Source: Candidatus Hadarchaeales archaeon
Lineage (GTDB): Archaea; Hadarchaeota; Hadarchaeia; Hadarchaeales; WYZ-LMO6
Assembly (NCBI GenBank): GCA_038736355.1
Contig: JAVYML010000002.1
Span: 376,074-440,073, forward strand
DNA length: 64,000 nt
Direction: 5' to 3'
Under the pieces are notes generated by a model, which was given only the letters and a program-made list of their open reading frames with translations, did not search any database and was not told the origin of the DNA. Below are positions 1,640 through 5,993 of the stretch, one piece after another (positions within the stretch are counted from its first letter, which is position 1; each line of letters opens with the position of its first letter). A program made the translations under genes and the position numbers.

Positions 1640-2161
1640 ATGATGCCCCTTTACGAGTTCGGTGGGAAAAGGCCCTCCATCCATCCCGGAGCCTTGGTGG
1701 CCAAGACCGCCTGCCTGGTGGGTGAGGTGGTGGTGGGGGAGGGTACGAGCATCTGGCCGGGCGCCGTCCTCAGGGGGGATCTGAACGCGGTGAGGGTGGG
1801 AAGGTTCACCAGTATTCAGGACAACTGCGTGCTCCACACCGACATGAGCGTGGAAGTCTACGTGGGTGACTACGTGACGGTGGGACATGGGGCAGTAATC
1901 CATGGGGCCTTGGTGGAAGACCATGTGTTGATAGGGATAGGCTCCATCATCCTCAACGGGGCCAAAATAGGTAGGAACTCCATCATCGCGGCGGGTTCGG
2001 TGGTGAGGGAGGGGACGGAGGTTCCCCCAGGGACGATGTTCGCCGGCGTTCCCGCCAAATTGGTAAAGGAACTGGATCAGGAGGAGCAGAGGATCAGGGC
2101 AGAGGCCGGTGCTTTGGGATATTATGAACTGGCTAAGCAGCATCCCGAGCTCTTCAGGTGA
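1640..2161 (+). CDS. Gamma-class carbonic anhydrase-like left-handed beta-helix protein
   Basis: This 173-residue protein is a hexapeptide-repeat (LbetaH) protein of the gamma carbonic anhydrase/YrdA family, which forms trimers with metal held by histidines at subunit interfaces and hydrates CO2. Seen here: IHPGALVAKTACLVGEV, the SIWPGAVLRGD turn, DNCVLHTD (first metal histidine), and GHGAVIHGA (the other two histidines), ending with GVPAKLVKEL. Length is typical. The two adjacent ATGs at 1640 and 1643 are both possible starts. The next gene overlaps its 3' end, suggesting translational coupling. Carbonic anhydrase activity is inferred; many family members are inactive or act as metal-dependent acyltransferases. 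Confidence 0.85.
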   Translation: MMPLYEFGGKRPSIHPGALVAKTACLVGEVVVGEGTSIWPGAVLRGDLNAVRVGRFTSIQDNCVLHTDMSVEVYVGDYVTVGHGAVIHGALVEDHVLIGIGSIILNGAKIGRNSIIAAGSVVREGTEVPPGTMFAGVPAKLVKELDQEEQRIRAEAGALGYYELAKQHPELFR

Positions 2162-3281
2162 GAGGACGCTCGAGGGAGTAAGGATAGTGGATCTCACCAG
2201 ATATCTTCCCTTCACCACCCTGCTGGCCGATATGGGGGCGGAGGTAATCAAGGTGGAAGAACCTCGCAGAGGAGATTACGCCCGCACCCTTCCACCTTAC
2301 TTTTCCGCTGTTCATAGGAACAAGCGAAGTCTCACCCTCAACCTCAACTCTCCAAAGGGAAGGGAAGTACTCCTGAAGTTGGTGGAGAGGGGGGACGTCC
2401 TCGTGGAGAACTTTAGACCTGGGGTGATGGAGAAATGGGGATTGGACTATGATACCCTGAGCGGGAGGAACTCCAGGCTGGTCTATTGCTCTATTTCCGG
2501 CTACGGGAAGAAGGGACCTTACCGTCTTCTGTCTGGTCATGATATCAACTACCTTTCCCTCGGAGGTGTTTTGGGCCTCACTAGGGACGAGAACGGAAAA
2601 CCGGTCATACCCGGAGTACAAATAGCCGATATGGGGACCTGTCTTCTGACCACGGTGGCCATCCTTTCCGCCCTCTTCCACAGGGAGAGAACTGGAAAGG
2701 GGCAATACTTGGAAATCTCTTTCTTGGGTGCCTCCCTTTTCTTCCTCACCCTTCCTTCCTCCTTACACTTGGAGGGGTGGGAGGTGGGTGAGGAGACCCT
2801 TCCCCTCCTAGGCCACTTCCCCTGTTATGCCGTCTACAGGACCTCGGACGGAAAATACCTGAGTATCGGGTGCTTGGAGGAGGTCTTCTGGGAGAGGCTG
2901 TGTGAGGTACTTGGGAAGAGGGAATACCTTGGTCATCAGTGGGACTTGGAAAAGAGAGAGGAGATCTTCGAGGCCTTCCAGCGGATTTTCCTGACGAGGA
3001 AAAGGGAGGAGTGGTTCAGGCTTCTGTCGGAGGCCGATGTCCCCGTTGCCCCCGTCTATTCCTTGGAAGAAGTTTTCTCGGATCCTCAGGTGAAGGAAAC
3101 GGGGATGTTGGTGGAGGAAGGCGGAAGGAGGGAACTTGGTTTCCCTTTCCAATCCTCCCTCTTTTCCTACAAGCCCAGGAGGAAAGCCCCCTCCCTTGGT
3201 GAACACACGGAGGAAATCCTGAAAGAGCTTGGGTACACGGAGGAGGAGGTGGAGGAGATGAGAGCGGAGGGTGTGGTTTGA
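2124..3281 (+). CDS. CaiB/BaiF family (class III) CoA-transferase
   Basis: The protein opens with LEGVRIVDLTRYLPFTTLLAD, then MGAEVIKVEEPRRGDYAR, NKRSLTLNLNSPKGREVL and DVLVENFRPGVMEKWGLDY, the standard order of a class III CoA-transferase. These move CoA between carboxylic acids through an enzyme-bound aspartyl-CoA thioester; the catalytic Asp is probably the one in VIPGVQIADMG. About 385 residues, near the usual 390-400. I chose ATG 2124, overlapping the carbonic anhydrase gene by 38 bases; GTG 2109 is an alternative. Its stop overlaps a TTG that opens the next long frame, but that gene more likely starts at GTG 3380. Substrate unknown; thiolase and crotonase neighbours suggest acyl-CoA catabolism. 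Confidence 0.88.
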   Translation: MNWLSSIPSSSGERTLEGVRIVDLTRYLPFTTLLADMGAEVIKVEEPRRGDYARTLPPYFSAVHRNKRSLTLNLNSPKGREVLLKLVERGDVLVENFRPGVMEKWGLDYDTLSGRNSRLVYCSISGYGKKGPYRLLSGHDINYLSLGGVLGLTRDENGKPVIPGVQIADMGTCLLTTVAILSALFHRERTGKGQYLEISFLGASLFFLTLPSSLHLEGWEVGEETLPLLGHFPCYAVYRTSDGKYLSIGCLEEVFWERLCEVLGKREYLGHQWDLEKREEIFEAFQRIFLTRKREEWFRLLSEADVPVAPVYSLEEVFSDPQVKETGMLVEEGGRRELGFPFQSSLFSYKPRRKAPSLGEHTEEILKELGYTEEEVEEMRAEGVV

Positions 3282-3379: not shown

Positions 3380-4813
3380 GTGGTAGGAATAACCTCCTGC
3401 GGAGTTTATCTTCCAAGGTACAGGATGGATAGGGCCGTTCTCTATGAAGCCATAGCTTCCTGGCTCAATCCCGCCGCCCTCCTTCCGGGGGAGAGAACGG
3501 TGGCTAACTGGGATGAGGACAGTCTCACGATGGGAGTGGAGGCGGCGAGGGACTGTTTGGGTGAAGAAAGGAAAAGTATTTCCTCGGTTTACTTCGCCAC
3601 CACCACTCCCCCTTTCGCCGAAAGGATGAACGCGAGCATCCTGGCCACTGCTCTGGACTTGGAAGAGGGGGTGAGAACGGTGGATGTTACCGGATCTCCC
3701 TCCTCCGGTATGAGGGCCTTGCTCATGGCTTTCGAGGAGGCCGAAAAGGGAAAGAGGGTTTTGGTGGTGGCTTCCGACTGCAGGATGGGAAGACCGGGGA
3801 GCGTGCAGGAGGCGATGTATGGCGATGCGGCTGTTGCCCTCTTGGTGGGGGAAGAAAGAGTGGCGAAGCTGGAAGGTTCCTATTCCCTCTCCCACGATTT
3901 CCCCGATTATTGGAGGGTGGAAGGGGAGGAATTCACCCGCTCCTGGGAGGACAGGTGGATAAGGGAGGAAGGATATCTCAAGTTCATCCGTTCCTCCATC
4001 GAGGGTTTGCTGAGGGAGAAAGGTCTCACCCCCGAGGATATTTCCAAGGTGGCTTTTCCGGCCCTTTTTCCAAGGGATCATCCACGTCTTGCCAGGGAGA
4101 TGGGTTTTTCCGAGCAACAACTCCAACCGAGTCTTTTCGAGCAGGTGGGAAACACGGGGGCCTCCTATCCCCTCCTTCTCCTGGTGGCGGCCCTGGAGGG
4201 AAGGGAGAGGGGAGAGAAGGTGGTGGTGGCAGGTTATGGGGCCGGGAGTGATTCTCTTCTCTTGACCGTCACGGGCGGAATGGGTGAGAGGAAGGTGGAA
4301 AGGGCTCTGGGCAGGAGGAAGGAACTGAGAAGCTATGAGAAGTACCTGGCTTGGAGGGAAAGCATGCCTGTGGAGAAGGGGATGAGGGGGGAAGAAATAG
4401 CCCCCACCTCTTTGTCGCTCGCTTGGAGGGAGAGGAGGGCTATCCTAGCGTTGGTGGGATCTAGGTGTAGAGCCTGCGGCACTCCCCAATACCCTCCGCA
4501 GAGGATCTGTGTGGCCTGCGGTGGAATGGACATGGAGCCATACAGGTTCTCGGAGAGGAGGGGGAGGGTCTTCAGCTACACCGAGGACATGCTGGCTTTC
4601 TCCGTGGATAGACCCGCCATTTACGGAATCGTGGATTTTGAGGGTGGTGGGAGATTTTGGTTCGACTTCACGGATTGTGAGGCCGGGGAGTTGAAGGTGG
4701 GAGCTCCCGTTAGGATGAGTTTCAGGAGGAAGTACCGGGATCCCGTGAGGGGAGTGATAGGATATTTCTGGAAGGCCGTACCGGAGGTGGAGGATGGGGG
4801 GAATAAAGGATAA
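3380..4813 (+). CDS. HMG-CoA synthase-like protein fused to a C-terminal DUF35 (Zn ribbon/OB) domain; catalytic residues replaced
   Basis: Residues about 1-320 have the archaeal HMG-CoA synthase fold: GITSCGVYLPRYRM, NWDEDSLTMGVEAARD, YGDAAVALLVG, FPDYWRVEGEEF, QVGNTGASYPL. The C-terminal ~130 residues are DUF35, with zinc ligands in CRACG...CVACG and an OB segment ending RGVIGYFWK. In true synthases a Glu, a Cys (FACKAG) and a His (FHQPNG) act together; here the aligned positions read ATTTPPF, GSPSSG and FPALFPRDHP, so all three seem lost. In archaea synthase, thiolase and DUF35 normally form one complex from separate genes. Here the synthase-like and DUF35 parts are fused and the thiolase follows, overlapping by 20 bases. 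A scaffold, aldolase or lyase role is possible; HMG-CoA synthesis is unlikely. Confidence 0.82.
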   Translation: MVGITSCGVYLPRYRMDRAVLYEAIASWLNPAALLPGERTVANWDEDSLTMGVEAARDCLGEERKSISSVYFATTTPPFAERMNASILATALDLEEGVRTVDVTGSPSSGMRALLMAFEEAEKGKRVLVVASDCRMGRPGSVQEAMYGDAAVALLVGEERVAKLEGSYSLSHDFPDYWRVEGEEFTRSWEDRWIREEGYLKFIRSSIEGLLREKGLTPEDISKVAFPALFPRDHPRLAREMGFSEQQLQPSLFEQVGNTGASYPLLLLVAALEGRERGEKVVVAGYGAGSDSLLLTVTGGMGERKVERALGRRKELRSYEKYLAWRESMPVEKGMRGEEIAPTSLSLAWRERRAILALVGSRCRACGTPQYPPQRICVACGGMDMEPYRFSERRGRVFSYTEDMLAFSVDRPAIYGIVDFEGGGRFWFDFTDCEAGELKVGAPVRMSFRRKYRDPVRGVIGYFWKAVPEVEDGGNKG

Positions 4814-5993
4814 GGTGGCCATCATAGGGATGGGATGCACTCGCTTTGGGGAGAGGTGGGACGCTGGCTATGAGGATCTCATCGTAGAAGCCTTCCAAGA
4901 GGCTTTGGAGGATGCGGGGATAGAAAAGGAAGAAATAGAGATGGCGTGGTTGGGGACCTGCTTCGATGAGGTCTCCACGGGGAAAAGTGCCTTACCCCTT
5001 TCCGTCTCCCTGAAGCTTCCCTTCATTCCCGTGACGAGGGTGGAGAACTTCTGTGCCACAGGTTCAGAGGCCCTGAGGGCAGCATGCTACGCCGTGGCTT
5101 CCGGGGCCTGTGAGGTGGCGCTGGCGCTGGGGGTTGAAAAGCTCAAGGACATAGGATATGGAGGACTTCCCGAATTCGGTTCCGGAATGGGAAGCAGGAA
5201 CAGGCTCATCTTTCCGAACGTTACGGCTCCAGGGGCCTTCGCCATGATGGCGGTGAGGTACTTCGATCGTTATGGGCTGACTCCCGAAAGGGGGAAGGAA
5301 ATTTTGGCCAAGATCTCGGTGAAAAGCCACAGGAACGGGGCGAGGAATCCCAAGGCCCACCTGAGGAGGGAAATAAGGGTGGAGGATGTTCTGTCCGCCC
5401 CCATCATCGCCTGGCCCCTCGGTCTCTACGACTGCTGCGGAGTGAGTGACGGGGCGGCAGCCGCTATCGTGGTGAGGGCGGAGAAGGCCAGGGAATACAG
5501 GGAGGATCCCATTTATGTGAAGGCGATGCAAGTGGCTACCACCTCCGGGGAGGAGCTGCTCTACCGATGGGACGGAACCCATGTGGAAACTACGGTGAGG
5601 GCGGCGAGGAGGGCCTATCAGGAGGCGGGAGTGGAGGATCCGAGAAGGGAGCTGGATCTGCTGGAAGTCCACGACTGTTTCTCCATCACGGAGCTGGTGA
5701 CCTATGAGGATCTTGGGATTTCCCCCAGGGGAAAGGCGGCGGAGGATGTGGAGGCGGGTTTCTTTGAGCTAGAGGGTGAACTCCCTTGCCAGCCCGACGG
5801 AGGCTTGAAATGCTTTGGACATCCGATAGGAGCCTCGGGTCTCAGAATGGTATACGAAATCTACAAACAACTCCAGGGGAAGGCCGGACCCAGGCAATTG
5901 AGGGATCCCAGATTGGGACTCACCCATAACTTGGGAGGTTTCCCGGCCATGAGCGTGGTCAGTGTTAGCATTTTCGGCTTGGACAGGGGCTAG
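4794..5993 (+). CDS. Thiolase-family acetyl-CoA C-acyltransferase (SCP2/archaeal type)
   Basis: A 399-residue thiolase of the archaeal/SCPx branch. It starts KDKVAIIGMGCTRFGERW and carries VENFCATGSEALR with the nucleophilic Cys near residue 86, LLEVHDCFSITEL, and GGLKCFGHPIGASG with the conserved His. Thiolases of this branch condense or cleave 3-oxoacyl-CoA and in archaea associate with DUF35 and HMG-CoA synthase. The start at ATG 4794 lies inside the end of the HMGCS-like/DUF35 fusion, so the two are probably co-translated. Unlike its neighbour, this protein keeps its catalytic residues, so it may supply the chemistry for the pair. Confidence 0.88.
   Translation: MGGIKDKVAIIGMGCTRFGERWDAGYEDLIVEAFQEALEDAGIEKEEIEMAWLGTCFDEVSTGKSALPLSVSLKLPFIPVTRVENFCATGSEALRAACYAVASGACEVALALGVEKLKDIGYGGLPEFGSGMGSRNRLIFPNVTAPGAFAMMAVRYFDRYGLTPERGKEILAKISVKSHRNGARNPKAHLRREIRVEDVLSAPIIAWPLGLYDCCGVSDGAAAAIVVRAEKAREYREDPIYVKAMQVATTSGEELLYRWDGTHVETTVRAARRAYQEAGVEDPRRELDLLEVHDCFSITELVTYEDLGISPRGKAAEDVEAGFFELEGELPCQPDGGLKCFGHPIGASGLRMVYEIYKQLQGKAGPRQLRDPRLGLTHNLGGFPAMSVVSVSIFGLDRG

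Follow-up and report, generated by a model that had tools for sequence, protein, structure and literature searches.

The genome of a Candidatus Hadarchaeales archaeon encodes a protein in which a domain resembling HMG-CoA synthase (HMGCS) and a DUF35 domain are joined in one chain, the catalytic residues of the synthase being replaced, and the next gene encodes a thiolase with intact motifs. What such a protein could contribute to the chemistry of its neighbour is the question considered here. The stretch of 64,000 nucleotides that carries the locus, referred to below as the window, has been analysed together with homologous loci of archaea and bacteria.

Domain organisation and catalytic positions of the fusion protein

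The fusion is encoded on the forward strand as a single open frame (3380-4813) with a GTG start at 3380 and a stop at 4813, corresponding to 477 residues; the longest possible frame opens earlier, at a TTG (3278). The HMGCS-like part covers residues 1-325 and the DUF35 part residues 345-470, approximately. Pfam matches comprise the C-terminal domain of KAS-III/HMGCS, zf-ChsH2 and OB_ChsH2_C, and both DUF35 models (the latter two) exceed their cut-offs, describing a Cys4 zinc ribbon followed by an OB fold. The archaeal HMGCS models of NCBIfam match below cut-off (187.3 of 244 bits and 129.6 of 353 bits), short of the score required of an archaeal HMGCS equivalog.

The catalytic positions were mapped by sequence alignment to the canonical HMGCS of the same genome (30% identity over 330 columns) and to chain I of 6esq. 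The catalytic Glu is replaced by Thr75 (3602-3604), the Cys by Pro107 (3698-3700) and the His by Pro227 (4058-4060), so that the triad expected of an HMG-CoA synthase is absent. The four cysteines of the zinc ribbon (363, 366, 377 and 380; Cx2Cx10Cx2C, 4466-4519) are all kept. The sequence-only reading of this DNA had claimed exactly this, a replaced triad with fold and zinc cysteines retained in a fused HMGCS/DUF35 chain, and the alignments, the Pfam matches and the fold comparison bear it out. That reading had named a Cys/Glu/His triad at the same positions as evidence against itself; such a triad was looked for in the fusion and not found. The statement on the triad refers to the sequence alignment, since the structural matches came without residue mapping. 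Judged from its sequence, the protein is confirmed as an HMGCS-like/DUF35 fusion that has lost the HMGCS catalytic residues.

AlphaFold models of the fusion and the thiolase, each folded as a single chain from shallow alignments, have mean pLDDT values of 78.9 and 77.5 and pTM values of 0.80 and 0.84. In the predicted model the HMGCS-like part is closest to 6esq_I (VIA Z 37.6, rmsd 2.1, 314 residues), followed by PhlA-type chains (36.5-37.1) and chains of MucABC (about 35.9), all of which rank ahead of other HMGCS. A profile search with the HMGCS domain places PhlA-type chains first and 6esq_I third.

Conservation, phylogeny and origin of the fusion

The family alignment comprises 37 sequences including that of the window, of which 35 lack the triad and 2 retain it. 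The non-catalytic sequences come from archaea, Chloroflexota, Pseudomonadota and Actinomycetota. The occurrence of the same fused gene in independent metagenome-assembled genomes rules out chance or an assembly artefact as its origin. The position of the Glu is held by Thr in 34 of the 35 and by Ser in the remaining one; the position of the Cys is occupied by eleven residue types, never by Cys, and that of the His by nine, Pro being the commonest, with His retained in four gammaproteobacterial sequences only. The zinc cysteines are conserved in all 36 fused proteins.

In the tree of the HMGCS domain, which is unrooted and has some long branches, a starred branch (99/96; present in 100% of bootstrap trees) sets the 35 sequences apart from canonical HMGCS, from PhlA and from the two fusions that retain the triad. 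As the loss of Glu and Cys recurs in every member of a group with this support, it is not a matter of chance. The non-catalytic fusions do not group with PhlA in this unrooted tree, from which they are separated by the same branch, and are not identified as its orthologues.

The recurrence of Thr raises the possibility that the HMGCS-like domain has acquired a new active site, formed for example by Thr75 or by the His of a PR(D/E)H motif that recurs in the Hadarchaeal/Dehalococcoidia branch, and carries out a separate step such as hydrolysis or decarboxylation of a CoA ester. We regard this as very unlikely, given that the residues at the Cys and His positions vary without constraint, that the PRDH His is missing from the members in Pseudomonadota and that the precedent, PhlA, is non-catalytic. 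Thr75 and the PR(D/E)H motif, present in part of the family, could nevertheless point to some residual function of the domain.

One homologue (L078) is unfused and lacks the triad; its genes are ordered HMGCS-like, DUF35, thiolase, and in the tree it lies nearest the canonical side. On these grounds the catalytic loss may have preceded the fusion, which would then have joined two adjacent genes. Two archaeal HMGCS-DUF35 fusions (L077 in genome G052 and L079 in G138) retain Glu, Cys and His and have no adjacent thiolase. They probably represent a separate fusion of a true synthase, and because of them the joining of HMGCS to DUF35 has probably arisen more than once. Fusion does not by itself imply loss of catalysis, as L077 and L079 are fused with the triad intact and L078 is unfused and yet triad-less.

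Homologues on plasmids are labelled in databases as 'OB-fold domain-containing protein' or '3-oxoacyl-ACP synthase III C-terminal'. The family is large, widespread and generically annotated, and our search of the openly accessible literature returned no description of it as such. The sequence-only reading had regarded the two chains as normally separate and the fusion as a departure from this; its wide occurrence in databases and the existence of fusions with an intact triad speak against that view.

The adjacent thiolase

The thiolase (4794-5993, forward strand) is of the HDCF, or SCP2, type and has its nucleophilic Cys87, the H293-D-C295-F motif and His343 of the GHP motif, in agreement with the earlier observation that Cys and His are kept. 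The Cys of the CxG motif is replaced by Asn379. The mevalonate thiolase of the same genome and chain A of 6esq carry the same Asn, which is therefore no sign of inactivity. The ATG of the thiolase gene lies within a 20-nucleotide overlap with the 3' end of the fusion gene and is closely preceded by a GGAGG resembling a ribosome-binding site; this arrangement suggests that the translation of the two is coupled. Structural matches of the thiolase model include zebrafish SCP2-thiolase, 6esq_A and BbsB, as well as 6ok1 and 9myr.

The last two are aldolases of the Ltp2-ChsH2 and Sal-Shy kind, and the sequence-only reading had proposed a retro-aldolase or lyase of this type, which would cleave a beta-hydroxyacyl-CoA without thiolysis. 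The fold and the dependence on DUF35 are held in common, and many fusion homologues reside on steroid- or aromatic-degrading replicons. Ltp2 and Sal are, however, devoid of the nucleophilic Cys, Sal having Gly at that position (PMC12329534), and such aldolases have Y-D-x-(F/Y) where the window thiolase has HDCF; Cys, HDCF and GHP are invariant across the thiolases paired with the fusion. The estrogen cluster of Novosphingobium ES2-1 contains both kinds: a separate Ltp2/DUF35 pair, its Ltp2 having Gly in place of the nucleophilic Cys, YDAF and no GHP motif, and, a few genes away, a fusion whose thiolase keeps Cys, HDCF and GHP. The proposal is not upheld, and we give retro-aldol chemistry hardly any credence.

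Neighbouring genes and catabolic context

The genes in the window are ordered as hexapeptide protein, CaiB-family protein, fusion, thiolase and DnaG. The hexapeptide (left-handed beta-helix) protein (1640-2161, forward strand) is a conserved neighbour within the archaeal family. A crotonase of the enoyl-CoA hydratase family (1-367) is encoded on the opposite strand and cut by the left edge of the window.

The CaiB-family gene (2109-3281, forward strand) is the sole family III CoA-transferase/racemase gene (CaiB/AMACR type) of the genome. His144, in the motif GHDINY, and Asp174 of its product align to the His and Asp of the M. tuberculosis MCR chains, as expected of an alpha-methylacyl-CoA racemase; we take these to be the catalytic His126 and Asp156. 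In overall similarity it is closer to CoA-transferases, scoring 199 bits to succinate-HMG CoA-transferase and 165 bits to MCR. The crotonase and the CaiB-family gene reported earlier as neighbours are thus both present, the former on the other strand, whereas the CoA-transferase label of the latter sits uneasily with its racemase-type His/Asp pair. This pair hints at methyl-branched substrates, and a racemase adjoining an SCP2-type thiolase would, speculatively and by analogy, be reminiscent of the peroxisomal pathway for 2-methyl acyl-CoAs.

The genome scan yielded 23 fusion genes at 21 loci, and at every one of these loci a thiolase gene follows directly downstream; the same holds for further non-catalytic homologues, plasmid-borne and archaeal, whose flanks were read. 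In Dehalococcoidia a CoA ligase lies upstream, and the pair is accompanied by two MaoC-type hydratases, two SDRs and two acyl-CoA dehydrogenases (ACADs). A gammaproteobacterial locus comprises CaiB, fusion, thiolase, ACAD, CoA ligase, MaoC and an HpcH-type lyase, and a locus of Syntrophaceae contains fusion, thiolase, CaiB genes, subunits of 2-hydroxyacyl-CoA-dehydratase type and a crotonase. The sister genus of the window's organism has CaiB, ACAD, MarC, fusion and thiolase. The gene surroundings of the fusion are those of catabolic CoA-ester metabolism.

A single Chloroflexota contig has two fusion-thiolase pairs in tandem (L012, L013) with four further genes between them, suggesting paralogous complexes for different substrates. 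In actinobacterial plasmid clusters (L082, L085) a ring-hydroxylating dioxygenase and a CoA ligase accompany the pair; these clusters resemble those for aromatic side-chain removal.

These contexts also bear on a biosynthetic reading, in which the proteins would form an acyltransferase or Claisen condensation complex joining acyl units, comparable to PhlABC or to the acetoacetyl-CoA thiolase of archaea. In its favour, thiolases are reversible and the solved assemblies nearest to the pair belong to this kind. On the other hand, beta-oxidation genes adjoin the pair in most lineages, no polyketide synthase or mevalonate gene is found nearby, and a canonical set fills the mevalonate role; a biosynthetic complex seems to us improbable.

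Distribution in Hadarchaeota

The genome carrying the window (1.27 Mb) has Hadesarchaea WYZ-LMO6 among its nearest relatives and encodes MCR-alpha genes, six ACADs, three crotonases and 3-hydroxyacyl-CoA dehydrogenases. On the basis of these relatives and MCR-alpha it is assigned to Ca. Cerberiarchaeaceae, the alkane-oxidising Acr family of Hadarchaeota, to which beta-oxidation and Acr are confined within the phylum (PMC10811742). The fusion is encoded in all four genomes of this family and in none of the 24 other Hadarchaeota genomes. Elsewhere the genome of the window encodes an unfused HMGCS of the canonical type (FACKAG, FHQPNG) together with thiolase and DUF35, so that the fusion is an additional system.

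The fusion is not unique to Hadarchaeota, as homologues are also found outside them in archaea and bacteria. A strict link to alkane oxidation does not hold outside Hadarchaeota either, six other fusion-bearing archaea having no MCR match; the tie between the two is by lineage only. A Hadarchaeon outside the Acr family has an unfused PhlA-like protein (GTCTNP/FSGKSG/FQQP; L065, G010:C148:2961-3998 and flanks) with a thiolase-fold PhlC-like protein and DUF35, a PhlABC-type cluster in an archaeon.

Proposed function

We infer, with a probability of roughly 0.7, that the fusion acts together with the thiolase in a single complex, a degradative 3-ketoacyl-CoA thiolase with a role in beta-oxidation, and that its HMGCS-like domain is a pseudoenzyme. 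All covalent chemistry would take place in the thiolase, where Cys87 would take the acyl group and His343 and HDCF would provide the base and the oxyanion hole. The HMGCS-like domain and the fused DUF35 would dock on the thiolase and close a shared CoA/acyl pocket in the manner of PhlA and PhlB on PhlC, the fusion supplying the HMGCS-like wall and the DUF35 lid; fusing the chains would fix their ratio at 1:1. This role is suggested by analogy with PhlABC and the methanogen complex. The alternative idea of the sequence-only reading, a channelling scaffold, fits this picture well, since 6esq, PhlABC and MucABC hold the thiolase against the HMGCS fold through DUF35, and the fusion may do likewise. 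Two points weigh against a degradative role: the direction, thiolysis or Claisen condensation, is not readable from sequence, and 6esq, the nearest thiolase with a solved structure, is biosynthetic. In this archaeon the complex would most likely serve beta-oxidation, whose substrates may be methyl-branched or otherwise bulky acyl-CoAs. In the family at large, bacterial as well as archaeal, such fusions would probably shape the substrate pocket of thiolases that degrade fats or steroids.

A broader proposal, which we offer tentatively and consider rather doubtful, is that of a widespread two-gene class in which a catalytically dead HMGCS-DUF35 fusion determines the specificity of a degradative thiolase. 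In Acr archaea it would act together with an AMACR-like racemase on methyl-branched (isoprenoid or iso-alkane) acyl-CoAs, paralleling in archaea the peroxisomal AMACR/SCP2-thiolase route.

The analysis proposes a role for a protein annotated in many genomes only as 'OB-fold domain-containing', 'KAS-III C-terminal' or 'HMG-CoA synthase', and cautions against reading such genes as mevalonate enzymes. It makes testable both the setting of a thiolase's substrate range by a pseudoenzyme and the fate of branched acyl-CoAs in Acr archaea. The proposed role extends to a gene left unassigned in bacterial estrogen degradation. The ES2-1 cluster and the edc estrogen cluster of N. tardaugens are syntenic, and in the latter the authors could assign no step to the 'HMG-CoA synthase' EGO55_13555 (PMC7793797). 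From this synteny we infer that EGO55_13555 is a member of the fusion family and the partner of thiolase EGO55_13550. It is bacterial, and its comparison with the window fusion is made through the ES2-1 counterpart only, which is about 36% identical to the latter.

Comparison with known systems

The benzoylsuccinyl-CoA thiolase BbsAB (7pxp) resembles the pair in being a degradative thiolase with a DUF35 zinc-finger subunit; we know of no HMGCS-like domain in it. The aldolases Ltp2-ChsH2(DUF35) and Sal-Shy (6ok1, 9myr) also combine a thiolase fold with a DUF35 partner and differ in lacking both the nucleophilic Cys and an HMGCS domain and in their retro-aldol chemistry.

The methanogen thiolase/HMGCS/DUF35 complex (6esq), in which CoA is bound at the interface of all three proteins (PMC6392133), has the same three folds, and its thiolase is about 35% identical to that of the window and shares HDCF and the Asn-for-Cys pattern. 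Its HMGCS is catalytically intact and unfused, and it serves the mevalonate pathway.

In PhlABC (PpATase; 5m3k, 5mg5) PhlA is without the key Cys and Glu, only residues of PhlC act, and the HMGCS-like chain takes no catalytic part in the transfer of the acyl group, the three chains lining one cavity (PMC6392133). The genes of the window show the combination known from PhlABC and MucABC, a non-catalytic HMGCS-like part, DUF35 and an adjacent active thiolase-fold gene, and PhlA-type chains are the top sequence-profile match of the fusion's HMGCS domain. PhlABC differs in its three separate genes, its own replacement residues (Cys/Gly/Gln) and its phenolic C-acetylation, and PhlC is more distant from the window thiolase than the methanogen thiolase is. 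The pair is not categorically new: it is a fused and probably degradative form of the HMGCS/DUF35/thiolase assembly in which one part is a pseudoenzyme.
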